In this document: piece after piece, positions 11,509 through 54,938 of the stretch | Numbering within the stretch: the first letter of the stretch is position 1 | How the letters are laid out: the number at the start of each line of letters is the position of its first letter | Source of the DNA: Branchiostoma floridae | Lineage: Eukaryota > Chordata > Leptocardii > Amphioxiformes > Branchiostomatidae | Reading direction: 5' to 3' | Assembly (NCBI RefSeq): GCF_000003815.2 | Contig: NC_049991.1 | Coordinates: forward strand, 4,429,298 to 4,493,297 | DNA: 64,000 nt | The notes under the pieces: generated by a model | The model's input: the letters and a program-made list of their open reading frames with translations, nothing else | Told to the model about the DNA's origin: nothing | Databases searched by the model: none | Made by a program: the position numbers and the translations under genes

Positions 11509-13001
11509 GGGCCCTTCGCCCCGGTCGGAGCATAGGCCACCGATGATAGCCCTCCACTGTACCCGCCTCTGGGCCTTCTTCCTCAGATCCTGCCAGTTGT
11601 TCTAAATACTCTTCGTCTCCTCCTCCGTATCCCTTCTCCAACTGTTCTTGGGCCTTCCCCTCTTCCTTTTGCCCTGTGGGTTCCAAGTCAGAGCCTGGTG
11701 TGTGATGCTGAATGGTGGCTTCCAGAGGGTGTGGCCTATCCAGGACCACTTTCTCTTGAGGATCTGACTGACCACTGGTTTTTGTCCTGTTCTGTCCCAC
11801 AGCTGAGCTGTCCCACATGTGTTGCTGATCCTGTCTGACCACTTGATTGCAAAGATTCTTCTCAGACAGGTGTTAATGAAGGTTTGTATCCTGTGCTGCG
11901 TTGCTTTTGTTGTTCTCCAGGTCTCGGATCCATAGAGTAGTACTGACTTGACGTTGGAGTAAAAGATGCGGAGTTTGATGGCTACCCGTATCACCCTGGA
12001 GGCCCAGACGTTCTTCAGCATGATGAAAGCTGCCCTCGCTTTACCTATCCTGGCGGTAACATCCCTGTCTGTACTCCCTGACGGTCTACCACAATTCCCA
12101 GTTTTGTCCTGCATCTGCTTTTGGTTGTGTGAGAGAAGTGCCAGGTCATCGGCAAAATCTAAATCTTCGTTGTGTTGTGTCCATAATGTCCATTGGATCC
12201 CAGTTCTCTCCCCTCTTGTAGTTGTCCTCATGATCCAGTCTATTACCAGGAGAAAAAGAAATGGCGATATTAGGCAACCCTGTCGTACTCCTGTCTTCAC
12301 CTCAACGCTCTCTGTTAGCTGTCCTGCGTGGGGTACTCTGCACTTAATGTCCTTGTATGTGTTGCTGATTAGGGATATAAACTTCTGTGGTATCACGAAG
12401 TGTCCTAGTATCTTCCATAAGGTGGCCCTGTCTATGCTGTCAAAAGCATTCTCATAATCTATGAAATTGATGTACAGAGGAGAGTTACATTCCAACGACT
12501 GTTCTATTATGATGCGTAAGATGACAATCTGATCGACACAGGACCTGTTCTTGCGGAAGCCTGCCTGCTCATCTCGCAGCTTCGCATCCACTGCATCCCT
12601 CATCCTCCACTCTGAGAATTCTGTTGAAGATTTTGCCGGCTGTCGATAGCAGCACGATCCCCATATAGTTGTTACAATTACTTAGATCTCCCTTCTTTGA
12701 CAGTTTGACAAGGATGCCCTCTCTCCACTCAGAGGGAGCTTGCTCCTCTTCCCAGATCCTATTAAAAAGACTGGTGGCTCTTTTACAGGTAGGGTAGTTG
12801 ACCCTACGCCAACCCTTTTTAACCTCTTGGGTGAGGGGCAAGGTCCATCCTTTAGTGACTACCCAAGCTCCACCCCCTCATTCGAGGTTACAGAGTAGGA
12901 ATGTGGCACCTACCCCAGAACTAGGAGATTAGTACATTCGGGCTCTCACACCACGGCAAGGCGGATGGACCGGGAGCTGATGTTAGGGCATCCCCTTGAG
13001 A
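11509..13001 (-). mobile_element. 5'-truncated or internally deleted LINE with an 11-bp target-site duplication
   Basis: GTGAAAGACTT flanks the insert on both sides (11498-11508 and 13002-13012). Other array units show the same flanking sequence uninterrupted (..CGTGAAAGACTTTATTATG near 21307 and 23980), which proves an insertion. The element is on the - strand. Its 3' end (11509) follows the end of the ORF almost directly and has no poly(A). The 5' 160 bp (about 12842-13001) are non-coding. Confidence 0.9.
11602..12841 (-). pseudogene. Reverse transcriptase of a non-LTR retrotransposon, frameshifted
   Basis: Two overlapping frames together cover most of an RT domain. The upstream frame (12841-12569) has WREGILVKLSKKGDLSNCNN, typical of the RT fingers. 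The downstream frame (12603-11602) has EQAGFRKNRSC, FIDYENAFDSIDR, TGVRQGCLISPFLF, DFADDLALL (the catalytic A/D-D motif), LLYGSETW and GKRKRGRPKNSWRRD. A premature stop at 11602 interrupts the C-terminus, which would continue to about 11515 (WQDLRKKAQRRVQWR, GGLCSDRG). The frame break lies near 12,600. No endonuclease domain is present, so the copy is dead. RTE-type or another LINE clade with a short 3' tail is likely; the clade was not resolved. Confidence 0.85.
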
Positions 13002-25807: not shown

Positions 25808-26374
25808 CGAGGGGCGTGCAATTAGTAATGGTCCTGACCCATTTCCCATAGCAGGAGATTAATGAAACTTGGCACAGTTATTAGTCTTTCTCTTCATAGG
25901 AATCACCCAGAGTTATGCATTTCTCCCATCGTTTGATGCAGCTCTGGACACCGATTTTGTAGGACACCCCAGGTTGGTCCTCCAACTGATGCCTCATCAA
26001 TGGCACAAGAGGGACGACCAGGTCTGGGAGCTGTTTCCACAGACTTCCAGCCACGTTTGAATTCAGGATGCCAGCGTTTTACAAGGTCATATGATGGGGC
26101 ATCATCACCATAAGTTTCATTTATTTCATCAAAAGTCTTCTTTGGTGTGCGTCCTTTCAAATACAAAAACCGGATCACTGCGCGACACTCAACTGGTTCC
26201 ATTTCACACCTGGTCCATTTCGCACCTGACTAAGTTCAAACACCAGTAAATCAGAAACCACAATTAGTTCAGAGCTGTCTTTTGCAACATAACCCATAGA
26301 GATATGCATTATTACACATACAAAATTTCATTTAGATCAAACAACTGGAAGTGGGTCAGGACCATTACTTATTG
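25808..26374 (-). mobile_element. Internally deleted mariner element missing its right tip
   Basis: The left terminus (CGAGGGGCGTGCAATTAGTA, then ATGGTCCTGACCCATTTCCC) follows a TA at 25806-25807. The right inverted arm GTGGGTCAGGACCATTACTT runs to ATTGCA at 26375, where the last 9-11 bp of the repeat and the second TA are missing. Other array units have the empty site (AGTCATAGCAGGATTTGTGC near 15800; AGTCGTAGCAGTCTTTGTGC near 20442). The length, about 0.57 kb against the usual 1.3 kb, shows a large internal deletion. Confidence 0.85.
25903..26202 (-). pseudogene. Mariner transposase N-terminal helix-turn-helix, fused to a C-terminal scrap
   Basis: The frame starts MEPVECRAVIRFLYLKGRTP and continues GDDAPSYDLVKRWHPEFKRG and RPGRPS. 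This is the first DNA-binding half of a mariner (Mos1/HsMar-like) transposase with its linker. After about residue 70 the frame jumps to a short tail. The DD(34)D catalytic domain is absent, so the protein could at most bind termini. Dead remnant. Confidence 0.85.
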
Positions 26375-40735: not shown

Positions 40736-41966
40736 GCCCAGCTCCACTCTACTACTTTTCATATTTAATGTGTTTTCTTGGTTAATTTTGCTAAAATCAA
40801 TGAAAAGTCACAGATTTTTGTATCAAGACTCAAGTGGCATCACTTTTCCAGTGGGCATTGTCTGCAAAAAACTTGTGAATGGGCGATGATCAAAACAATA
40901 GTCGTTTTGCCACTTCACAACAAAGGAATCACCATAATGTATTATACTTCATTACTTGTAGTATTTGACAACCTCTGCAAAATGAACCCATTTTCATGAG
41001 AGCGCAGCGCATTGGTCCGGGTTATTTTTGCCAGCCCCTCCACTATACTAAAATGTTATGAGGAGAACCCTGCTGTCTGTACTTTGTATGTGGCACTGTT
41101 AGAATAAGACACGCCCAAAAGCTGATACTCAAGCAACTTGATATGATTTTGAAAACATTTCAAACACATCCGTTGTTTTTCGTCAGTGACACTGAGAAAT
41201 CTTGTTGGACAAGGTTTATACATCATAGTTCTTGTTCGGCTCGATCGGGTCATAGTCTTTTACAAACATTCTTATAACTTAGGGAAAATCGTTTCTTATA
41301 ACTTAGAGTAAATTGTTTCTTATAACTAAGAGAAAATCGTTTCTTATAACTTAATCGTTAATCGTTAACTACACAATCATGTAATCTTCGACGGCTGTTT
41401 TTGAGATGTATGTGGCAAGAAATCTGGTTTTACCAGTGCTTGTGAAAAAATGTGCAATCTACTGTATGTAGAGGGAAGGCGACACAGCTGAAGAGCGGGT
41501 ATAATGTTTCAAACTGTTTAAGAAAACAATGGAAAATGAAGGGGCCTCGAGATGACTTCATAATTGTGACAGTGAAGCAAGTTACAATGTGTGCACTTTT
41601 TATCTTAGTAGGTTGTGATGTTTTCCGTCCCCTAGTTGTAAAGATGAAGCTGACGCATCACGTACAAATGTTTATTACTGAATCCTTTAGGGAGTGTTCA
41701 ACCCGCATTCGATAAAGTTTTTTCTGTTTCAAGTAGGGCACTTTATGTCACCTTGAGAGCTGTGGTTCTAGTTGCTGCTTTTTTTCTGGACCTGTTCAGT
41801 GTAAACTGGGGCACCACAGTTAGCGGTGCCGTTAAAGATTTTGCTTTTCTGGCCATTTGACTTTAAGCAACATGTAGCGGCCAAGGTCCCTTTGAAATCT
41901 CTACATTTTGTCGATGTTCTTTTGTATGGGATTTCGTTTCATAACCATTCACATCACATGGAATCA

Positions 41967-42242
41967 AAACGTGAGACCATGACACGTGTACTGTTTTTTT
42001 TTATTGCTGGTCGCTTTAGAGGACGTAACTGTACAAACAGCCATATTGGTATTCCCATGGGAGGGGCTAGGGTTACTAGGATTCAATCTATGTGGTTGGA
42101 CAGATTTATCACGTGATTTGTATACGGACACAGATATCTCCATTTTCTCCGTTCTTTCTTTCTTTCGTCGCCTTTTGCAAGACAAGACGTGTTTCTAGAA
42201 TCAGCCTCTTCCTTAGTTCAACCACAGAGACATCCTACCTTG
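41967..42242 (+). promoter_or_regulatory. Array 3 promoter-like block, copy 1, with donor GTAAGT
   Basis: GGGAGGGGCTAGG (GC/KLF-type box), inverted CCAAT (GGTTGGACAG), E-box TCACGTGA at 42109-42116, then a candidate non-coding exon ending CCTACCTTG before GTAAGTAC at 42243. E-box to donor is 134 bp. This copy has the most canonical donor. Confidence 0.5.
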
Positions 42243-43762
42243 GTAAGTACTTGTTGCTTAAATGTTTTACCCTGTGTTTTAGAAAGGATTCTGTACAGTC
42301 TGATTTTTACATATTTGATATACCGGGTAATGTTGACAGAGGGACGCTTGTCTTTGTTTTAGATGTTGGTAGAACAAGAGGCTGCAGTCGTATGTGCCTG
42401 GTTTGCCATAGCCGTAACGGGGAGGGCAATACCAAAAAATAGTTGTAGTTGTGGGAGGGCCTAGGAAAAGTTCCAAGAAGCGTTAAAAGGCCAATGTGTC
42501 GCCGTTAGCAGGCAAACTGGATGTATTATGAGCTTTGTGGCCCTGTCGGTTTGTCCTAGGTCGGTAAAATGGCGGTGTTCGAGCCACAGTTAACACTGCA
42601 TGGTTGAACATATGGTACTGGCATATTTCTTCTACGTTTGAAATGTTCTTTAACTAATTATGTCAAGTTGTGATCAGCTCAAGTTTCAGAGGTTGTTTTG
42701 GCTTTATTAAGATTTTTTCCCTTTTACGTACAGTGAAGCGACCTTGGGTCACGTTAAAATCTTTTTAGCGAGCTTGTCTCCTTCTTTCCACTAGTTTAGA
42801 GTGCAATATTTGTAGCCAGTTACCAATGCTTGTACAATGGTGATAGAATAGTTATCTTCTGATTGTTTTAAATGTTTTTTCTGGTCTTCTTGAAATGTTG
42901 TCTTTTTTAATGAATCACGAGACATGGGGTCACATGTGAATCTATGAATCTACTTTACTTATTCATGTAACTACTTGTTCTTCATGATCAGTTTTATATT
43001 TAGAGTCACTGTTGACCCTCACTACTTTATTGAAATCTCTCAACCCCGCCTTAAATCTCCCATTTTTGTTGTAAATCTGATATTGATAGGCACTACCAGT
43101 TCCTATGACCGTTCCTGTCACTTAGAGTAAAACGTGAGTCAACTACGCAATCATGTACTCTTCAACGTTTGTTGGCGAGGGCAAGGTGTAAAGAAACCTC
43201 ATTTAACCAGTACTTGTGAGAAAATGTGCAATCTACTATAGAGGGGCCGTTGTAGTTGAAGAGCGGGTAAACCTTTTTTCAGACCGTTTGAGAAAACAAT
43301 GGGAAATAAAGCGCCCCGAGATACATTTATAAATGTTAAGTATGTTGCTACTATTCTCTATCTATTTGAAGTGTGATGTTTAGCGTCACAAGTGACAAAG
43401 TTTTAAAGATGAACCTGACGTATTACGTGTAAACTACAAACGGTAGGTACTGATTCCGTCAGGGAGTGGTCAACCCACATCTTATGGTTGTTGTTTTGTT
43501 TTGCTTCTTGCTTTTTTTCTGCTTTAAGTAGGGCAAATTATGGCCTGAGCCATGGGTCAACTTAAAAGCTGTGACTCTAGTTGCTGCTTTTCTGGACCTG
43601 TTCAGTGTAATGTGGGACACCAGAGTTGATATTATTAATTTCTGACCATTTGATAGTAAGCAAGATGTAGAGGCCCAGTCCCTTTGAAATCCGTATATTT
43701 TGTCGATGTTTTTCTAGATTGATTTCGTTTCATAACCATTCTCATCACATGGAACAAAAACG

Positions 43763-44023
43763 TGAGACCATGACACGTGTACTGTTTTGCTATTGCTGGT
43801 CGCTTCTGAAGACATAACTGTCCAAACAGTCATCTTGGCATTCTCACGGGAGGGGCTAGGATTCGGGCTACGTGGTTGGTCAGATCCATCACGTGATAGG
43901 ACGAAGGCCAGAGATAGCTTAATTTTTTTTCCATTCTTCATTTTATTCTCGACTTACGTAAGACAAGACAAGTTTCTAGAAGCACCTTCTTATCTAGTTC
44001 ACTGACAGAGACATCCCTCCTCG
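43763..44023 (+). promoter_or_regulatory. Array 3 promoter-like block, copy 2
   Basis: GGGAGGGGCTAGG, GGTTGGTCAG, TCACGTGA at 43889-43896, candidate exon ending CCCTCCTCG before GTATGTACC at 44024 (135 bp from E-box). Confidence 0.5.
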
Positions 44024-45756
44024 GTATGTACCAGCTAGTTGCTTAAAAGTGTAGTGTCATGTTCTGTTCAGTTTGGTCTTTGGTATAGCTGATTTAGAGT
44101 CTGTTATGTTAAGAGACGGACTCGTGTATTTGTTTTGGCAGTTGGGAGACCAATTCGCTACAGTAGTACCTGTTTTAATGTTGTCGTAACGAGGAGGGAA
44201 ATGCCGAACGTTCAGAGGTCATCTGTCGGTATTTGTGGCAAAATAGAGCCACAGTTAGCACTGCTTGTAAAGATGGTGTTTGCGTATTTTTTTTTTTACA
44301 TTTGAAATGTTCCGTTAGACTGATTCCGGCAATTGTCAGCCAACGTTCCATAATAAAAAAAATTGATGTTTTCTGGCCTTCTTGAGATTATCCCGTTTTA
44401 CGTTCAGCATGTGGGGTCCGATTTCACATTGAAATCTGTAAGTGTAGCTAGATTGTCTTAATCGTTTGGGACAATTCAGCGTGGTGCTCGAAGCCACAGA
44501 TAACAGTTGTTGTCATGTGGTTATGAGGTAGATTTTTTCTCTTTTTATGTTTGTGACTGATTTTGTTAGGACCATGCCAGTACGCATATCATACGTTTTT
44601 TCCTTCCCTTCTTGAGCTGTTTTTCTTTTCAGGTTAGTCACATGTTCAGGTATAGGGGCACCTAGAAATCTATACTAACTACCTGTTCTTTATTTTTCGT
44701 TTAATGTTTGACGTTTGGAGCCACTGTTACTTGGTTGAAATCCTTTAGTTAGCAACAATCATTCGCAGGCATTTGTGTTTGTTGTTCCTGTTTTACTTTA
44801 TCAGGTCATAGTGTTTTTAAAAAATTCCTATTAAATAGCGCAAAACGTGAGTCAACTACACAAGCATGTACTCTTCGAAGGTTGTTGCTGAGGAAAAGGT
44901 AGAAGAAAACCTCGTTGTACCAGTACTTTTGAAAACATGTGCAGTTTATTGTGCGGGGGCAGCGGTGTAGTTGATGAGCAGGTATAACGTTTCAGACTGT
45001 TAATGAAAACAAATTGGGGGAATGAAGCGACCCGGGATACACAAATAACTGTGAGGCGAGTTGATGCTCTTATGTATCTAGCCAGTGTCTCTGTTGATAT
45101 AGCTGTAGAAATGAAATTGACGCATTAAGTACAAATCAGAAACCTTGGTTACTGATTCAGTCAGGAACTGGTCAATCCACATTTCATAGTTATTTTGGCC
45201 TTCTTCTTTTTTCGTATGTTTAAGTAGAACAATGGTAAATGTCCGGGGTCACCTTCAAAACTGCGCTACTTTTCCGGACTTGTTCAGTGTAACATGGGTG
45301 CCACAAATAACACAGTTGTGAAGATGAAGATGACACATTGCGCACAAATTCTAGATGTTGGTTAAACGGTTACTGATTCCAACTGGGAGTGGTCAACAGG
45401 CTTTTCAGTTTGTTTTCGCCTTGTTGTTGTTTTTTTAACTAATAGAGCATGCAAAGGCCTAGGGTTACAATAAAAGCTGTAGTTCTTTTTGGTTAGTAAC
45501 TTTTCTGGACCTGTTTAAGGTATAATCTGGGGCACCACTGTTAACAATAGTGGTGGAGATAGTGCTTCCAAGTTGGAAACATCTTTACCGACTCTCTCGA
45601 GTCCTGACCAGCCTTTATTTTACTTTTTTCTGGCCATTTTGACATAAAGCTTCATGTAAAAGACACGGAATCCAATCAAAATATTAAATATAGTTGCGGT
45701 TCTTCTGGATTTGATTTAGTTCTGTTGTTCACATTCCGCATTAAATGAAATAAAAA

Positions 45757-46008
45757 CGTGAGACTATGACACGTGTACTGTTCGGCACTTGCTGGTGGCT
45801 TCCATTGCAGGACTATCCAAACAGCAATCTTGGTATTCCCACGAGAGGGGCTAGGGTTCAAGCTTCGTGGTTGGTCAGATCTATCACGTGATAGGATTAG
45901 GACTTAGAATGCCTCATTTTCTTCATTTGATTCTCGACTTACTCAAGACGAGACGTGTTTCTAGAAGCAACCTCCTATCTAGTTCACCGACAGAGACATC
46001 CCTCCTCG
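45757..46008 (+). promoter_or_regulatory. Array 3 promoter-like block, copy 3
   Basis: GAGAGGGGCTAGG, GGTTGGTCAG, TCACGTGA at 45884-45891, candidate exon ending CCCTCCTCG before GTATGTACT at 46009 (125 bp). Confidence 0.5.
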
Positions 46009-47515
46009 GTATGTACTAGTTGCTTAAAAGTATTGTAACATGTTCTGTTCAGTTTGATTTTTTGACATAGATTATTTAAATCTACTGATGTCGAGAGACG
46101 GCCTCGTCTATTTTTGTTTTGGAATTGGGAGATCGAACGAGTTGATTCAAGCGCTCCTGTTTTAATGTTGTCGTAACGGGGAGGGAAATGCCGATAAAAG
46201 AAACCTGTGAAAGCGTTGAGGAAAGTAGTTGAAGAGGTACTACCAGGAAATAAAAACGATTAAGGCTTAGTTAAAATGGCATTGGGGCGCCCGTAGCAGT
46301 ACACTGGAGATGTTGTGAACTTTGTGGAACGTACAGAGAGGTCCTCGGTCGGTATTTGTTGCAAAATGGTGGCGATACAGCCACAGTTAACACTGCTTGT
46401 AAAGATGTTGCTTGCATATATAGGATTTCTACATTTGAAATGTTCCTTGCTGATTCCGACAATTAGGGTCAGCCAACGTTCCATATGTTTCCTGGTCCTC
46501 TTGAGATTATCCCATTTTCACGTACAGCACAAGGTTCTGATGGCATCTTGAAATCTGTGTACCAAGCGTGCCCTCTTTGGGGCCAATTTAGAGTGCTCGT
46601 AGTACTTTTAGTACTTCTTACAATGGTTGTAAAAAGCTGATGGGTTCGATTCTTTCCCTTATTTATGTTCGTTACTGATTTTCGTAGGACTTCGAAAGTA
46701 CACGCTCCACTATCTTCTTTAGCTGTTTTTTTATAAGTCACATCTTTTTGTCCTGTTTGCCAGTTCAGAATCTGATGCTTTGAGTCCCTATTATTTGTTT
46801 GAAATCCTATATTCATAAGTCACTGTTGTAAATCAGTGCTGGTTTTTCGTGTTTGACTGTATTATGTCATAGTTTTTCATCAACGCTCCCATCACATAGA
46901 GTAAATCGTAAGTCAAAATACACGGTCATATGTACTATTTGAAGGTTGTTGGTGAGACAATGTGGAAAGAAACCTCGTTTTACCAGCACTTGTGAGAAAT
47001 GTGCACGATCTACTGTAGAGGAGTGGCGATATAATTGAAGAGCGGTAATAACATTTCAGACCCTTTATGAAAACAATGGGATAACGCGTGCCGGAATACA
47101 TTGAACTGTGAAGCAAGCTGCTTCTCTTCTGTAACTAGTCAGAGCGTGATGCTTTTGGTTAAAGCTATTAAAAAAGCAAAGTATTCAACATGAAGCTGAC
47201 GCATTATGTACAAACTCAAAACGTTGATTACTGATTCCTTTAGCGGTTGTCATCCCGCATTTGATAAAGTTGTTGTTTTTTTGTTTTGCCTTCTTGTTTT
47301 TTGTTTAAGTACGGCAAATTATGTCCCGGATCACCTTAAAAGCAGTGACTCTAGTTGCTGCTTTTTCCGACCTGTTCAGTGTAATGTGGAACACCTGAGT
47401 TAATATTATTAAGATTTTGGTTTTCTGACCTTTTGTCCCTTTGAAATCTGTATACTTGTCGATGTTCTTCGGGATTGATTTCTTTTCATAACCAGTTCCA
47501 TCACATGGACTAAAA

Positions 47516-47765
47516 CGTGAGACCCTGATATGTGTACAGTCCGGCTCTTGCTGGCAGCTTCCATGGACAGAACAGCCATCTTGGTATCCCACGGGAGGGG
47601 CTAGGATTCTAGCTACGTGGTTGGTCAGATCTATCACGTGATAAGAAGAAGGACTAAAAAAGCTTTATTTTCTCCATTCTTTATTTAAATCTCAACTTAC
47701 TCAAGACAAGACGTGTTTCTAGAAGCACCCTGTTATCTTGTTCACCAACAGAGACATCCCTCCTA
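47516..47765 (+). promoter_or_regulatory. Array 3 promoter-like block, copy 4
   Basis: GGGAGGGGCTAGG, GGTTGGTCAG, TCACGTGA at 47634-47641, candidate exon ending CCCTCCTA before GTATGTACC at 47766. One base is lost at the junction yet the GT is kept. Confidence 0.5.
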
Positions 47766-49404
47766 GTATGTACCGGTTGCTTAAAAACATTGTGTCATGT
47801 TCTGTTCAGTTTGATTTTTTTTGGCAAAGCAGATTTAGCTGGTGATGTTAAGAGACGGCCTCGTGTATTTGTTTTGGATATTGTGAGAACAAGTTGCTAG
47901 AATCGTACCTGTTTTAATATTGTCGTAACGAGGAGATTGAGCCGAAAAAGAAAGCTGTGGGAGGGTTGAGGGTACTAGTTGAAGAAGTAATATGTAAGCA
48001 AGTGTTGCGTCATGATCTGTTTAGTTTGATTTTTTTTACATAACCGATTTAGTTCTATATCTAGTGATGTCAAGTAACGGTCTCGTGTATTTTTGTTTTT
48101 GAAGTTGGGAGAATAAGTTGCAATAATTAAGCAAAACGTTTAAGACTTAGTTCAAAATGGCATTGGGGCGCCCGTAACAGTACACTGAAGGTGTTGTGAA
48201 CTTTGTGGAACGTATAGAGACGTTTTCTCTCGTTATTCGCAGTAAAATGGCGCCATTAGAGCCACAGTTAACACTGCTTGTGAAGAAAGTGCTTGCATAG
48301 GTTTTCTACATTTGAAACGTTCCTTACTAATTCCGACATTTAGGGTCAGCAAACGTTCCATCTGTTTTCTGACTATCCTGAAATTATCCCCTAAAGTTTA
48401 GTACAACATGATGGGCCCGATGTCGCCTTGAAATCAGTGTAGCTAGATTGCCTTCATCTTTTGAGTGTAGTGCTTATAGCCACAGATAACAATTGTTCTA
48501 ATGTAGTGATGAGGTAGATTTCTTTCTATTTCTATCTGTCCTTTTCTGAGTTACTTAGGACGTGGTCAGTACACATTTCATACGTTTTTTCCTGACCTTC
48601 TTGAGCTGTTTTTCCTTCATGTACAGCCATGGGGTCATCTTGAAATGTTTTTCTTTATTTTTCGTGTAGAGTCTGACGTTTGGAGCCACTGTTATTTGCC
48701 AAAAATCTCAAATGTATAAATCTTCTCGTTAATTTCTGTTTGTTGTCCCTGTTCAACTTTATCAGGTCATAGTGTTTCATAATGATGATTATCAAATAGA
48801 TCAAAAGGTGAGCAACTACGCAATGATGTACTCTTCGACTGTTGTTGGTGGAAAGAAATCTTTTTTTACCAGTGCTTCTGATGAAATGTGCAATCTACTG
48901 TAGAGGCTAGGGCCGCGTTATAGTTGAAGAGCGAGTATAACGTTTAAGACCATTTAAGAAAACAATGGGGAATGAAGCGGCCGGGACACACAAATAACTG
49001 TGAAGCGTGTTGCTGCTCTTCTGTAACTAGCAGGAGTGTCATGTTTAGTGTCACTATTGACATAGTTGCAAAGATGAAGCTGACGCATTACGTGCAAATT
49101 CTCAACGTTGGTAACTGATTCCCTCAGGGAGTTGTGAACACGCAGTTCATGTGTTTGTTTGTTTTTGCTTTCTTGTTTTGTTTTCCTGTATATATATGTA
49201 GGGCGCATGTTGGTCCTTGTCACCTTGAAAATTGCCGCTCTAGTTGGTGCTTTTTTAGACCTGTTTAGTGCAATGTGGGGTACCAGAGATAACAATGGCG
49301 ATAAAGATGGTGCTTTTTTGTAGCCATTTGAATAAGGTATATTTTGTCGATGTTCTTCTGGATTGATTTTGTTTCATAACCATTCCCATCACGTGGAACA
49401 CAAA

Positions 49405-49659
49405 CGTGAGGCCATGACGCGAGTACTGCTTTGCTCCTGCTGGTCGCTTTAGAGGACAGAACTGTCCAAACAGCCATCTTGGCATTCCCAGGGGAGGGGC
49501 TAGGATTCGGGCTACGTGGTTGGTCAGACCCATCACGTGATAGGAAGAAGGCCAGAGATGGCTTAATTTTGTTTCATTTTATTCTCGACTTACACGAGAC
49601 AAAACGTGTTTCTAGAAGCACCCTCCTATCTAGTTCACTGACAGAGACATCCCTTCTTG
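49405..49659 (+). promoter_or_regulatory. Array 3 promoter-like block, copy 5, donor changed to GC
   Basis: GGGAGGGGCTAGG, GGTTGGTCAG, TCACGTGA at 49533-49540. The donor is GCATGTACC at 49660 (GT to GC), still a possible but weak site. Confidence 0.45.
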
Positions 49660-50211
49660 GCATGTACCAGTTGCTTAAAATGTTGCATTATATTCTGTTC
49701 AGTTTGATATCTTTTATATAGCTGTTTTAAACTTAGTGATGTTAAGGGATGGAGTCATTATTTGTTTTAAAAATTAGGAAAACAAGTCGCTACAATCGTA
49801 CCTGTTTTCATGTTGTCATAACGAGGAGGAAAATGACAAAAAAATAATGCTCGGCAGAAGGGTTGGGGGTACTAGTTGAAGAGGTACTATGTAAGCAAAA
49901 CGTTTACGTCTTAGTTAAAGGGGGCATAGGGGCGCCTGTAGCAGTAAACTAGAGGTGAAATGAACTTTGGGGAACTTATAAAGAGGTACTCTTTTGGTAT
50001 TAGCGGTAAAATGGCGGTATTAGAGCCACAGTTAACAGTGCTTGTAAAGATGGTTCTGGCGTAGGTTTTCTACATTTGAAACGTTCCTTACTGATTCCGA
50101 CATTAAGGATCAGCCAACGTTCCATATGTTTTTTGGCCTTCTTGAGATTATCCCTTTATAAACGTACAACATGAAGGTCTGATGACACCTTGAAATCTGT
50201 GTAGAATAAAA

Positions 50212-50470
50212 ACGTGAGACTACGACACGTGTACTATTCGGTACTTGTTGGTAGCTTCCATGAACAGAACTATCCAAACAACCATCTAGGTATTCCCACG
50301 GGAGGGGCTAGGATCCAGGCTACGTGGTTGGTCATATTTATTACCTGATAGGCAGAAGGACTAGGAGATAGCTTCATTTTCTTCATTCTGCATTTGATTC
50401 TCGACTTACTCAAGACGTGTTTGTAGAAGCACCCTCTTATGTAGTTCACCTACAGAGACATCCCTCCTCG
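50212..50470 (+). promoter_or_regulatory. Array 3 promoter-like block, copy 6, degenerate E-box
   Basis: GGGAGGGGCTAGG and GGTTGGTCAT are kept, but the E-box is TTACCTGA (50341-50348). Donor GTATGTACC at 50471 is intact. Confidence 0.4.
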
Positions 50471-51085
50471 GTATGTACCAATTGCTTAAAATGGTTGTCT
50501 TATGTTCTGTTCATTTTATTTTTTTGGCATAGCTTACTTAGCGCGTGATGTTGAGATACGGCCTCATGTATTTGTTTTGGAAGGTGGGGGAACAAGTCAC
50601 TACAATCGTACCTGTTTTAAGGTTTGTCGTATCGGGTAGGGAAATGCCGAACAAAAGACATTGTGAGAGTGTAGAGGATAGTTGAATAGGTAGCTAAACG
50701 TTTTAGACTTTGGACATCGAGGCGCAGTGTTGTCATGTTCAGTTGCTTTATCTCAAAACGGTGGTCACTGATTCAGTCGTTGAGTGGTCAAACCATTATT
50801 TTGGCCTTATTGTTTTTTCCTCCGATTAAGTAGGACACGTAAAGGCTCAGGGTTACCATGAAAGCTGTGGCTCTACTTTTTGCTTTTCTAGACCTATTTA
50901 GGGTGTTATGTGAGGCGCCACTGTGAACAATGTTGGTAAAGATAGATAGGTGTTCCTTGAGTCAATTTTTCTGGCCATTTTGAGATTACGCAACATGCAC
51001 AGGCACGGGGTTCACATGATATTTACATATTTAGCTTCTGTTCTTCTAGATAAATTCGTTTCATAACCCATCACATGGATAAAAA

Positions 51086-51340
51086 CGTGAGACAGTGACA
51101 CGTGTTCTATTCGGCTTATTGTCGCTTCCAATGACAGAACTGTCTAAACAGCCATCTTGGTATTCCCACGGGAGGGGCTAGGGGGGCTACGTGGTGGTTA
51201 AGATTTATCACATGATAAGAAAACGGGCAGAAATAGCTTCATTTACTTCATATTTCATTTGATTATCGACTTACTCAAGACAAGACGTGTTTCTAGAAGC
51301 ACCCTGTTACCTAGTTCACTGACAGAAACATCCCTTCTCG
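51086..51340 (+). promoter_or_regulatory. Array 3 promoter-like block, copy 7, closest to the gene
   Basis: GGGAGGGGCTAGG kept, CCAAT part broken (GTGGTGGTTAAG), E-box TCACATGA (51208-51215), donor GTATGTACC at 51341. It lies about 620 bp upstream of the next acceptor (51957-51958). Confidence 0.4.
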
Positions 51341-52029
51341 GTATGTACCAGGCCAGTTGCTTAAAGTGTGGTGTCATGTTCTGGTCCTTTTGGTTTTTTG
51401 GCAAAGCTGATTTTGCATGTGATGTCAAGAGACGGATTCGTGTATATGTCGATCAAATCTTACCTGCTATATCTAAAGTTTGTTGAAACGGGTAGGAAAA
51501 TGCAAAAAAAAAGACGCTGTGAGAGTGTATAGGATAGCTGAAAGCTGTGGTTCTAGTTTCTGCTTCTCTAGGCCGAACACTGCTTTTGATTAAAAGTTAA
51601 CGTAAGAAAGCAAAATTATACAAGTGTTAGAATAGAACAAATGAATATGGAATATAATGAAAAGAAAGATTGTCACCACACAGCGAAACTTGATACGGTA
51701 CGACGGCTCTCTGCTCTGCGTTACTAATTTAAATAGAAAAGAGTCTGACAAGCTTTTTGGCCATCCCCTTGTCAACATCCCCCAGCAAGGTCCATATCGG
51801 GGCCATGCATTTATGTTCAGTGGGACAAGAAAAACACCTGAGTAGAAAAAAATGCAGCAATTCGGCTTTGCAAAATCTAAAATCTCTCGTTTCCACAAAT
51901 GATTCTACAAACAAAACTAATGAGATTTCTCTTTTTGCAAGTCTCATCGCCTCCCCAGAAAGCTTGTGCACTTCTCCACGACAAAATCTTCAGGAACGTC
52001 TACAGCATCACCAACATCGCAACGTCATC

Positions 52030-54938
52030 ATGAAGTAAGAAATTCTCTCTTCTTTTTTTCCTTTCATTTTTGTACCACTGAAACGCCTGTGAAAAACTAG
52101 TTGAAGACGTCATCGCTAATCTCCAAGCAGATCTTATCGTAGCTTAAGATAATATCAATAGCTGGCTGAGGAGTGAGTCCGGCTTAGGAGTGGACATGTG
52201 TACATATTTTACAACAATATCCTGCATTCTACATGTAGGTCATGAAAATGTTGTCAGACCATACTTGAGGGGTTGGGGAGGCAGTAAAATGTCTGTGGAA
52301 ATCAGCAGAAACGTTGTCCCACGGTAACCTGCCTTGTAGATATAAACTCTGTGGTTGATATTTTGTTGTTGCAGAGTCAATTTTGTTTGAAGGTGACGGC
52401 GTGATAATGTCGACACTGCATATTAGAGTCGTTCGTGTTCGTTTGTGGTGTTTCTAAGTCGTTTGTGGTCGTTTGTGGTGTTTAGGCACACCCCAACCTT
52501 GACAGGTAAGATTCAGATTTCTTGAGCCCAAAATTTCTTCTCACACCCAACATGTTGATCAAAAATGAAAGGGGCTGTCAAATGTATTGGGGCCAATNNN
52601 NNNNNNNNNNNNNNNNNNNNNNNNNNNNNNNNNNNNNNNNNNNNNNNNNNNNNNNNNNNNNNNNNNNNNNNNNNNNNNNNNNNNNNNNNNNNNNNNNCTA
52701 CGGCCCCCGGTATTTCCAGCGCTAAGTCAGCCGTCGCTTCTATCTTGTTTTCCACATTCTAACAAGTAACATGCATGTAACATACAAATTGAGGTAGAAC
52801 AGAGTCCACAGCTTCGGAGCTAAGAAGAATTTTGTCGTTAGCAGTGTAAATGTATTTTACCATTGGGTTATAAACTGTACTTCCATGTGCGAGTACCTCC
52901 CTGACACTGCATCTGCATGTTAAATTTGGTACCAACTGCCCCTACGGCTTCAAAAAGCCAATGGTATTACATATACCTCTTATTGATTGCACTTATTATC
53001 ATTAGTCGAAGAAAAATAGATGTTTCATTTCAAGTATACGTTTACCATTGTATACGTTGACCAAATGTGTGTTCTATGAAAAATGTGAATGTATGTATGT
53101 GTTGGCACCAAATATCAGCTGAACTGCCTGGGTTTGCCATGTATTACACAGGCTTTTTTTACTGATTTCTTTTTCTAGAGTGTGGCACGGTGTGTTACTC
53201 CTCCTTGTAGTATGTGCACTCGTGCTAGAGACAGACGCAAGCTTCCTTCGCCGTCGAAGCTTCCTTCGCCGTCGAAGCTTCCTTCGCCGTCGAAGCACTG
53301 GCCATGGTGAGAATATGACAGGCTATAAAAAAGTGAAAAGTCAAAGTGCCATAATTTTGCTTCTGTCAAGTGTGTCAGTCCCATCACAACTTTTGTTAGA
53401 CATGTATCTTGAGACAATTCTGTGATCATTTCATCATTATTTTAGAATGTTGACACTGTTCGACGGATTACACGGATTTACAAAGATCAAAGATTGACTA
53501 TTCAAGTGGACGCTGTTAAACAGAACATATGAAGTCCACAGATAATCTAGAACTGTTTGCAGTATGAAGTTAGAAGCATTAGTGGGACGAAAGTGACAAT
53601 CTTCAAGACTTTAGTGTCCTATTGCTTTTGCAAGATTTTGAAGAATATATGGCTAGATAACTGTCAAATGGAAAGGTTTTTGTCAAATGTTGCCTATATA
53701 TTTGATCTTATAAATCATTGATTGTACAGCCCAAGAGCAAATTCTTTTCGCCTCCCCCTTACAGTTCTAAAGTTAAGTGTTTGGTTTATTTTTATTAGGA
53801 ACAGCGAGCTGCAATGAGCCAACGCGGAAACTAGCGAACGCCGTCTGGCCCTGCAGTCCGCCCTACAAACACGGATTCACCTGTTTATACAAATGCAGAC
53901 AAGGTTACACCCTGGTCTCCGACAGCAACAAGAAGACCTGCTCCAATGGACACTGGACTGGAAAAGTTGTCTGTGAGAAAGGTAAGTACGTTATAATCAG
54001 ATTGGGATTATTTTGCAACAAAATATAATTTGACCTTCAATAAAAGAAGCGACTTGTTGAAGAGAGCCGGTCTGTAATGTAAAAGCAAGCAGAGACGATA
54101 TCAACGTCCTGTATTACATATAAAAAAGGCCTCCTGACAGCCTTGACAGTTAAGTATTATATCCTCTTTGTATAATTTGAATAAAGAACAGAAGATAATG
54201 AACTGATGTGCAAGTCATATTCATGAATTAAATCTCATTTCGATATTTAATGAGAAACATTGATGAAGTGTCAATGGAAAGGGTTAACATCATTTGGTGA
54301 AGGTATGAGGCTGAAGACCGCGTAGCGCAGGTGACATTGGTGGGACCGCGTAGCACAGTGGCAGTGTGTTCGACTCGGAACCGATAGGTCGCGGGTTCGA
54401 ATCCGGCTGCCGTGTTACCGATCTTGTGCCCTTGGGAAAGGCACTTTACACGGCTTTCCTCACTTAACTCAGGTGAAAATGAGTACCTAGCTTCGGCTAG
54501 GGCCGTCCCTAGGATAGGACGTTAAATGGAGGTCCCGTGTATGGGGAGAGCCACACCCCATGCACCCTATAGAACCCCCACACATGCGATGGTGCGGTGT
54601 GATGGGTCAAATCATGACAGTTTGGGGTGTTAGTAACCAAGTATGCACCAAGGGCTTAGCTGGCGAGGGATGAAGCATATAAAGATTCTTATGTCACGTT
54701 TCATCTGCTGGAAAAAGAGCTTCCACACTTTCATTCATCTGCTGGTAAAAGCTTCCACACTTACATCTCTAAGACGCCCTTTCTCTTTAGTTACAGAAAC
54801 TGCTTGACGCTTGAGAGTGCGGTCTTCGTTGTCTTCTTCCCACTGAAGACTACTGCAAAACGGACATTCTGATCATTCATTCCAGAAAGTGAGCATGACT
54901 CCTCTGCAGGTGTTAAAATTGAAATTAAAATTTCATAG
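52030..54938 (+). CDS. Secreted sushi/CCP-domain protein with three SFLRRR repeats
   Basis: Coding exons are 52030-52034, 53179-53306, 53799-53981 and 54886-54938, with phases 2, 1, 1 and donors GTAAGA, GTGAGA and GTAAGT. The first carries only ATG AA, preceded by a 5' UTR that begins at 51959 after a good acceptor (CGCCTCCCCAG). The predicted protein has 122 residues: signal peptide MKVWHGVLLLLVVCALV.. to about residue 22, three SFLRRR repeats (23-40), then a sushi domain with Cys at 49, 63, 73, 77, 92 and 103 (CLYKCRQGYTLV, CSNGHWTGKVVC). The short acidic tail ends KIEIKIS and a stop. The CCP order C..C..GY..C..W.G..C is clear; six Cys is two more than the minimal module. One CCP only, no membrane anchor: probably a small extracellular binder. 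The last exon is the least certain; intron 1 contains an assembly gap and intron 3 a SINE. Array 3 lies directly upstream. Confidence 0.75.
52598..52697. other. Assembly gap (100 N)
   Basis: It lies in intron 1 of the sushi gene. It could hide an exon, although the phases of the exons found already fit. Confidence 0.95.
53240..53293 (+). repeat. Coding 18-bp tandem repeat, three copies
   Basis: AGCTTCCTTCGCCGTCGA three times without a mismatch, encoding SFLRRR three times just after the signal peptide. Exact identity suggests recent slippage expansion or strong homogenisation. Confidence 0.95.
54318..54620 (+). mobile_element. tRNA-derived SINE in intron 3 of the sushi gene
   Basis: A-box-like GCGTAGCACAGTGGC and B-box GGTTCGAATCC (near 54393) form a tRNA-like head; part of the head is duplicated (GACCGCGTAGCGCAG before it). 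The body has GCCCTTGGGAAAGGCACTTT, CGGCTTTCCTCACTTAACTC and CCGTCCCTAGGATAGGAC. The same body occurs at 60.9 kb. The acceptor stem does not close as in a functional tRNA. Confidence 0.8.

Follow-up and report, generated by a model that had tools for sequence, protein, structure and literature searches.

A 64,000-nucleotide stretch of the Branchiostoma floridae genome, hereafter the window (C13:4429298-4493297 in a 513 Mb assembly), holds seven tandem copies of a block of 310-340 bp ahead of a gene for a small, probably secreted sushi protein. We conclude that this block is probably a dispersed cassette, made up of a promoter and an untranslated exon, that has been amplified repeatedly and serves mainly gut-type genes. 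An earlier note on the window had read the array as a set of alternative promoters, each with an untranslated first exon, that serves a single gene, or else as an array giving rise to a long non-coding RNA (lncRNA). Judged by its conserved parts, its donors, its depletion of ATG and the acceptors downstream, the array is best explained by alternative promoters with untranslated first exons. The note missed, however, that the family extends over many loci, where the cassette also stands before other genes. The lncRNA option has found little support (no search aimed at a second exon common to the unit bodies was made).

The mechanism that we propose is as follows. Factors would bind the promoter part of each block, which lacks a TATA box; transcription would start at an initiator (Inr)-like site in or near the spacer, and an untranslated leader exon some 95 nt long would end in a GTATGT donor. 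This donor would be spliced to an acceptor lying before the next gene's coding exon, in the window that of the secreted sushi gene. The cassette would have been copied to many places in the genome and retained before non-homologous genes, mainly of digestive or gut type, and tandem amplification in situ would have given some of them many alternative promoters and first exons, acting as parallel starts. It is the kinds of downstream genes that link the cassette to the gut, where we would predict these genes to be expressed.

Architecture of the array

Inside the window the array is homologous only to itself, with fainter traces that reach back to 41215. The blocks recur every 0.8-2.0 kb, and the last two units are truncated, the block being retained in both.

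41330..51560, + strand: array of seven units in tandem, of which five measure about 1.4-2.1 kb and two are truncated
41961..42301, + strand: block 1, with promoter-like part, exon-like part and donor GT at 42243 (GTAAGT)
43752..44075, + strand: block 2, donor GT at 44024 (GTATGT); promoter 43791-43898, spacer 43899-43954, exon 43955-44023
45749..46056, + strand: block 3, donor GT at 46009
47507..47813, + strand: block 4, donor GT at 47766, with a single-base deletion directly before the donor
49396..49706, + strand: block 5, GC in place of the donor GT at 49660
50204..50517, + strand: block 6, donor GT at 50471; E-box reads TTACCTGA
51077..51392, + strand: block 7, closest to the sushi gene, donor GT at 51341; E-box reads TCACATGA

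All seven plus-strand blocks described in the earlier note were recovered (coordinates 41961 to 51392), as were the E-box TCACGTGA, intact in five of them, and the donors, which read GTATGT five times, GTAAGT once and GCATGT once, the last in the third-last block. The whole window contains seven matches to TCACGTGA, with 0.9 expected and a maximum of three among 100 shuffles. The donor lies 124-134 bp after the E-box, nearly the 125-135 bp claimed; the donor coordinates given previously mark the last base of the exon, and the GT begins one base further on. Two proposed promoter elements had to be given up. In place of a GC box, GGGCGG occurring nowhere in the array, all seven blocks carry the G-rich element GAGGGGC. 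At the supposed inverted CCAAT box, six blocks have GTTGG (CCAAC) and the remaining one has lost the word; a true ATTGG occurs in 16 of 65 family copies. The window blocks thus lack both the CCAAT and the GGGCGG of an NF-Y/Sp1 promoter.

Further words in the blocks are GCCATCTTGG, which we take to be YY1-like, TTCCCACG, presumably CSL/RBPJ-like, TGATAG, which we regard as GATA-like, and TTCATTTT, in our assumption Inr-like; a second CACGTG lies further upstream. None of them is universal in the family, where TTCCCACG was counted in 39 of 59 copies, TGATAG in 43 of 64, the second E-box CACGTG in 19 of 64 and TTCATTTT in 27 of 63 (motif counts and the tree below draw on the 65 copies that cover 230 or more model positions, copies gapped at a motif being dropped). 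A heat-shock-like word, TTTCTAGAA, is found in six of the seven window blocks but in 17 of 65 family copies, and we do not stress it.

The exon part behaves as an untranslated exon would. On the plus strand, 57 of the 67 family copies that are complete at this point have a GT donor, and each of the 20 loci that contain the donor region has at least one GT-donor copy. Distal copies keep the GT as well, in six of the seven window blocks and in 18 of 21 copies on C7. From the Inr-like site to the donor, a mean of 94.6 nt, ATG occurs five times in 6336 nt (67 copies, a set different from the 67 scored for the donor), and the other five orders of the letters A, T and G occur 20-90 times in the same exon parts. 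Such near-absence of ATG is what an untranslated leader should display. A minus-strand exon was dropped, as GTRWGT, present on that strand in six of seven window blocks, is shared by 6 of 69 family copies. A coding block was also rejected, given gaps of 1, 2, 5 and 9 nt and three minus-strand open reading frames (ORFs) of the array that have no Pfam hit (no codon-based test was made). A spliced-leader gene, which the shape of exon plus donor had suggested, was set aside (no test for an Sm site or a structure was made).

Selective conservation of the blocks

The earlier note had proposed comparing the conservation of the block with that of the unit body. In the window the block is indeed the better conserved, with a mean pairwise identity of 0.803 versus 0.738, calculated over columns present in all five full units. 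When the block mask was shifted circularly, 11 of 1138 positions, the true one included, matched or surpassed the observed excess. By part, identity is 0.841 in the promoter (43791-43898 in unit 2), drops to 0.668 in the spacer after the E-box, and returns to 0.836 in the exon, with 0.738 in the body. Promoter and exon parts exceed the body in 10 of 10 pairs among units 1-5. Conservation on either side of a fast spacer is the pattern that would be expected of a promoter plus exon.

In two other arrays the block as a whole is preferentially kept. Block identity is 0.897 versus 0.769 for the body on C7, where the block is higher in 117 of 120 pairs, and 0.787 versus 0.690 on C19 (35 of 41 pairs). 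These alignments used full blocks at set spacing only (16 units on C7, 10 on C19, four on C16 and five on C1); the length filter retained 41 of the 45 pairs on C19, and C12, with two units, was left unscored. The uniform decay without relation to genes that is typical of an ordinary satellite is therefore not seen in the window, on C7 or on C19. The array has one feature of an alternative first-exon cluster, namely tandem exon-like stretches with promoter-like regions and donors of their own. The body contains a second, weaker conserved peak at 44243-44345 of unit 2 and its counterparts in the other full units (GAGCCACAGTTAACACTGCTTGTAAAGATGG-like); the two truncated units of the window lack it.

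A dispersed family with arrays grown in place

A block query found at least 43 places genome-wide, and a second query added places on C2 and C15. Two core patterns, allowing up to three mismatches, gave 66 and 56 genome matches, and their reversed controls gave none. At the 24 loci read for the census there are 99 blocks, whole or partial, and orientation is mixed at no locus. The large arrays are those on C7 (32 blocks, some partial), C19 (12), C1 (at least seven), C16 (six) and C12 (four); some C7 and C19 copies are truncated. Unit bodies are homologous between loci at about 60-70%. An alignment of 48 copies was restricted to near-full blocks.

In the tree, the copies on C7 (support 0.999), C19 (0.957), C16 (1.0) and C12 (0.904) form single-locus groups, and window copies 2-7 also form one group (0.928). 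Grouping by locus implies that these arrays, at least four in number, grew in place. Homology edges vary among single-copy loci, with no common element ends apparent by eye, a reading that included no search aimed at target-site duplications or terminal repeats. Coding exons common to the loci were considered and discarded: a blastp comparison of all ORFs returned 584 cross-locus matches outside the blocks, the best 60 of which looked like DNA-level repeats.

The earlier note would have abandoned its reading had the unit been found scattered genome-wide as an ordinary transposon or satellite. Scattered it is, but 13 of the 25 loci that we read precede a same-strand gene, and seven of these genes are hydrolases from six families. 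Such a pattern of downstream genes would not be expected of an ordinary satellite or transposon.

Genes and acceptors downstream of the blocks

The 25 loci comprise the 24 of the block census and C12:7813500; five further pattern places (C7:10739194, C16:199771, C2:26751999, C3:28643223 and C3:3330521) were left out of the reading. The recognisable genes at 13 loci, one named by eye and one below the Pfam cut-off, all lie on the same strand as the blocks:

Window (C13), same strand: sushi gene (Pfam)
C7, same strand: trypsin gene
C12, same strand: trypsin gene
C16, same strand: Peptidase_M14 (carboxypeptidase) gene
C6, same strand: COesterase (carboxylesterase) gene
C2, same strand: alpha-amylase gene
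C19, same strand: gene for an aspartyl protease with A1 propeptide
C7:10.8 Mb, same strand: alkaline phosphatase gene
C10:20.2 Mb, same strand: C-type lectin gene
C3:28.6 Mb, same strand: gene for a kringle protein, its start not located
C12:7.8 Mb, same strand: monocarboxylate transporter gene
C2:5.3 Mb, same strand: monocarboxylate transporter look-alike, named by eye, no Pfam hit
C18, same strand: multicopper-oxidase-like gene, below the Pfam cut-off

Four more loci have fainter candidates:

C15:10.5 Mb: fatty-acid-binding-protein-like exon, weak (E 0.03)
C1: ATP-synthase-beta-like gene, distant (more than 5 kb past the array)
C15:19.56 Mb and C211: a bare reading frame without assigned family at each

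At 11 of the 13 loci the last block ends 196-1769 bp ahead of the start codon, and at 12, the kringle gene being the exception, the start codon lies within 1.8 kb of a block. The amylase gene has a donor-bearing cassette that ends 385 bp before its start codon; for the transporter on C12, the distance from donor to start codon is about 460 bp.

An acceptor before a coding exon implies an exon upstream, and the donor of a block can supply one. The best acceptors within 100 nt before 15 downstream start codons outscore those before 5188 control ATGs (p 1.6e-5), and the ten named secreted-type genes show the excess by themselves (p 0.0011). Amylase (TTTCCTTTCTGTTAG/AAATG, the slash marking the junction), C12 trypsin (TTTTTAAG/GAAAGAACTGAACATG), the transporters (on C12, CAATTCCTACAG/ATG, with CCTACAG directly before the ATG) and the aspartyl protease all have stronger acceptors than the window gene. 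Those of C7 trypsin and the lectin are unremarkable, 27% and 25% of controls being as good.

For the window gene itself, the acceptor AG and the ATG exon ending in ATGAA/GTAAG are present just as first described:

51959..52034, + strand: sushi gene exon 2, with acceptor AG at 51957-51958, 71 untranslated nt, then ATGAA and donor GTAAG
53180..53312, + strand: sushi gene exon 3, remainder of a signal-peptide-like start (MKVWHGVLLLLVVCALVLETDA) and FLRRRS repeats; limits and signal peptide assigned by eye
53799..53981, + strand: sushi gene exon 4, encoding a single Sushi domain (PF00084, E 1.2e-6)

The next best genome place for exon 4 is 50% identical, and by eye nothing of the rest of the gene was recognised up to 8 kb beyond the window. 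The FLRRRS repeats of exon 3 are encoded by a perfect 18-bp tandem repeat (3.2 copies, 53239-53296) right after the signal-peptide-like start; they make up a small basic repeat tract in the probably secreted protein.

Counter-evidence and rival explanations

A number of observations weigh against a promoter-and-exon cassette serving the genes downstream. These genes and their start codons were chosen by eye, mainly downstream on the same strand, and at eight of the 25 loci (C13:3.09, C15:0.55, C230, C2:29.6, C10:3.9, C14:5.6, C19:0.14 and C3:3.3) no gene was seen in the 3-10 kb past the last block. The matrix behind the acceptor scores is approximate; by it, the acceptor of sushi exon 2 is ordinary (score 2.8, with 25% of control ATGs as good), and three others score at chance level, namely those of the alkaline phosphatase (58% of controls as good), the oxidase-like gene (59%) and C211 (52%). 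The nearest block is cut off before the donor at the C16, C6, C19, alkaline phosphatase and lectin loci, where the nearest donor-bearing block lies 764-1714 bp from the start codon. No donor-bearing block was found in the stretch read at the C18 oxidase-like locus, four loci, one of them before the oxidase-like gene, have only truncated blocks that lack the donor region, and one donor in the window is GC. Window unit 1 groups apart from the other window copies in the tree. The excess of block over body is missing on C16, an array too young to tell (0.950 versus 0.968, block higher in three of six pairs), and on C1 (0.842 versus 0.901, three of 10 pairs). Finally, block-restricted gene conversion could account for part of the C7 pattern and may in part mimic selection. 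The C1 array, with its relaxed blocks, its mostly broken donors (GT lost in five of seven copies) and its gene kilobases off (the next recognised gene more than 5 kb away, a signal-peptide-like exon 4 kb away), provides a built-in contrast.

Paralogues bear on the same question. A protein search for amylase, conducted regardless of blocks, found seven places. When about 1.1 kb upstream was read at five of the six other than the one listed above (C5:13992862 was left out), a block was present at one (E 7e-82) and four were without; the second core pattern places a block 3.1 kb before one of these four (C2:26748810). Amylase thus has a block upstream at three of seven places, and three genes with none within about 1 kb upstream count against the cassette, as does alkaline phosphatase, where known blocks precede one of 12 places. 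By this distribution the cassette is an addition to particular paralogues and not a requirement of the gene class.

Only the nearest intact copy might serve as promoter and first exon, the others being by-products of duplication that act at most as enhancers. A single donor-bearing copy is apparently enough at amylase and the transporters, unequal exchange grows tandems without any function, and truncated copies exist on C7 and C19. We nevertheless think this unlikely, if a serious competitor, because distal blocks, too, are conserved beyond the body (10 of 10, 117 of 120 and 35 of 41 pairs in the window, C7 and C19), their donors stay GT (6 of 7 in the window, 18 of 21 on C7), and the nearest copy is precisely the one without a donor at C16, C6, C19, alkaline phosphatase and lectin. 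Indirectly, these figures suggest that the distal copies are retained.

Alternatively, the blocks might be an ordinary satellite or decayed transposon that ends up beside genes at random or because it favours open chromatin, its blocks being conserved through gene conversion. Occurrence at 24 or more loci, homology of the unit bodies across loci at about 60-70% and the absence of a visible gene at eight of 25 loci would all suit this explanation. It becomes improbable in view of the same-strand genes at 13 of 25 loci (12 of these genes having their start codon less than 1.8 kb from a block), the conserved promoter and exon split by a fast spacer, and the ATG depletion and donor conservation, since a preference for insertion sites leaves the retention of splice sites unexplained. 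We give least credence, and very little, to blocks that drive an lncRNA array unconnected to the downstream genes. The secondary conserved stretch in the body (44243-44345 of unit 2) could speak for it, but the two truncated units of the window do not have that stretch, donor-bearing cassettes lie less than 0.5 kb from the start codons of amylase and the C12 transporter, and Rfam at gathering threshold gave a single match in the whole window, tRNA-like at 54344, and none in the array. A promoter-and-first-exon cassette acting on the downstream genes thus remains the reading that we prefer.

Comparison with known systems

Clustered alternative first exons with promoters of their own are known from UGT1A and the clustered protocadherins. 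The window array would share with them tandem promoters and a donor on each first exon, and it has a candidate for a common downstream acceptor. It differs in that its putative exons are untranslated and are near-equivalent repeats, and in that the cassette elsewhere would also serve non-homologous genes. Promoters derived from long terminal repeats (LTRs), with a first-exon donor, rewire sets of genes, as do MERVL/MT2 in the mouse. Like these, a single repeated sequence has spread to unrelated genes as promoter and first exon; unlike these, the blocks look constrained and have been amplified in tandem, one gene being preceded by as many as 32 block hits, of which some are partial. Ribosomal DNA has arrays of spacer promoters, which resemble the present array as duplicated tandem promoters upstream of a single transcription unit, whereas the cassette precedes protein genes and bears a splice donor in each unit.

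To our knowledge, vertebrate enzyme genes share short sites, not one homologous promoter of 300 bp. Pancreatic enzyme genes carry elements for PTF1 (Ptf1a/E-protein/RBPJ-L) (PMC4880809, PMC10553828). In the enzyme genes of vertebrates and sea urchins, the PTF1 code requires an E-box and, at a distance of one or two helical turns, a TC-box (PMC4880809). The cassette resembles this system as a common cis-code for digestive enzyme genes, with the CSL/RBPJ-type word TTCCCACG in 39 of 59 copies. In contrast to the bipartite PTF1 site, the nearest CANNTG lie 49 and 51 bp from TTCCCACG in the family consensus, to which the scan was confined, and for this reason we do not class the cassette as PTF1. 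Homologous promoter cassettes before unrelated gut-type genes would be set apart from the PTF1 type of short-site sharing.

Other features of the window and the loci

Beyond the sushi exons, a tRNA-Pro-like sequence (54343-54416) lies inside what by eye appears to be a tRNA-derived short interspersed element. The window also contains, on the minus strand, fragments of a reverse transcriptase (11602-12681, PF00078) and of a Mos1-type transposase HTH (25906-26229, PF17906). Penelope-like reverse transcriptase frames, named by eye, occur in both orientations near a single block at C13:3080000-3095400.

Behind the C1 array, an intron-split ATP synthase beta-like gene (C1:1995801-2006800, + strand) is preceded by a signal-peptide-like exon (MPFRHIAALAVILAVANAGG). 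One exon of this gene has as its best PDB match a chloroplastic beta chain (106.6 bits, versus 101.8 for the mitochondrial one). By this small margin, the animal genome may hold here a copy of plastid or bacterial type.

Biological significance

It has long been asked how unrelated genes come to be controlled together, and the usual answers are convergent small sites or enhancers borne on transposons. Here, one homologous promoter and first exon, apparently by copying, precedes genes for amylase, trypsin, carboxypeptidase, esterase, aspartyl protease, phosphatase and transporters, which suggests that a duplicated promoter helped to wire a set of digestive genes. No title or abstract listed in a restricted search of the open literature, by a few terms, describes such a cassette. 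In the diverticulum of Branchiostoma belcheri, transcripts for trypsin-like protease, cathepsin (including D), pancreatic-lipase-like protein and carboxypeptidase Z/N are reported (PMC6015868); they stand for classes of genes, not for the downstream genes themselves.

Somewhat more tentatively, and at slightly under even odds in our judgement, the cassette, of host origin and spread by duplication to non-homologous genes, may have become the shared promoter for part of a battery of digestive genes; its copy number before a gene, raised repeatedly in situ to as many as 32 block hits, would then itself set or buffer the output of highly expressed gut genes. Because paralogues with the cassette can be compared with paralogues that have no block nearby, the wiring event is open to tests gene by gene. 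Furthermore, the arrays raise the question of whether the copy number of a promoter may itself be a selected dial.

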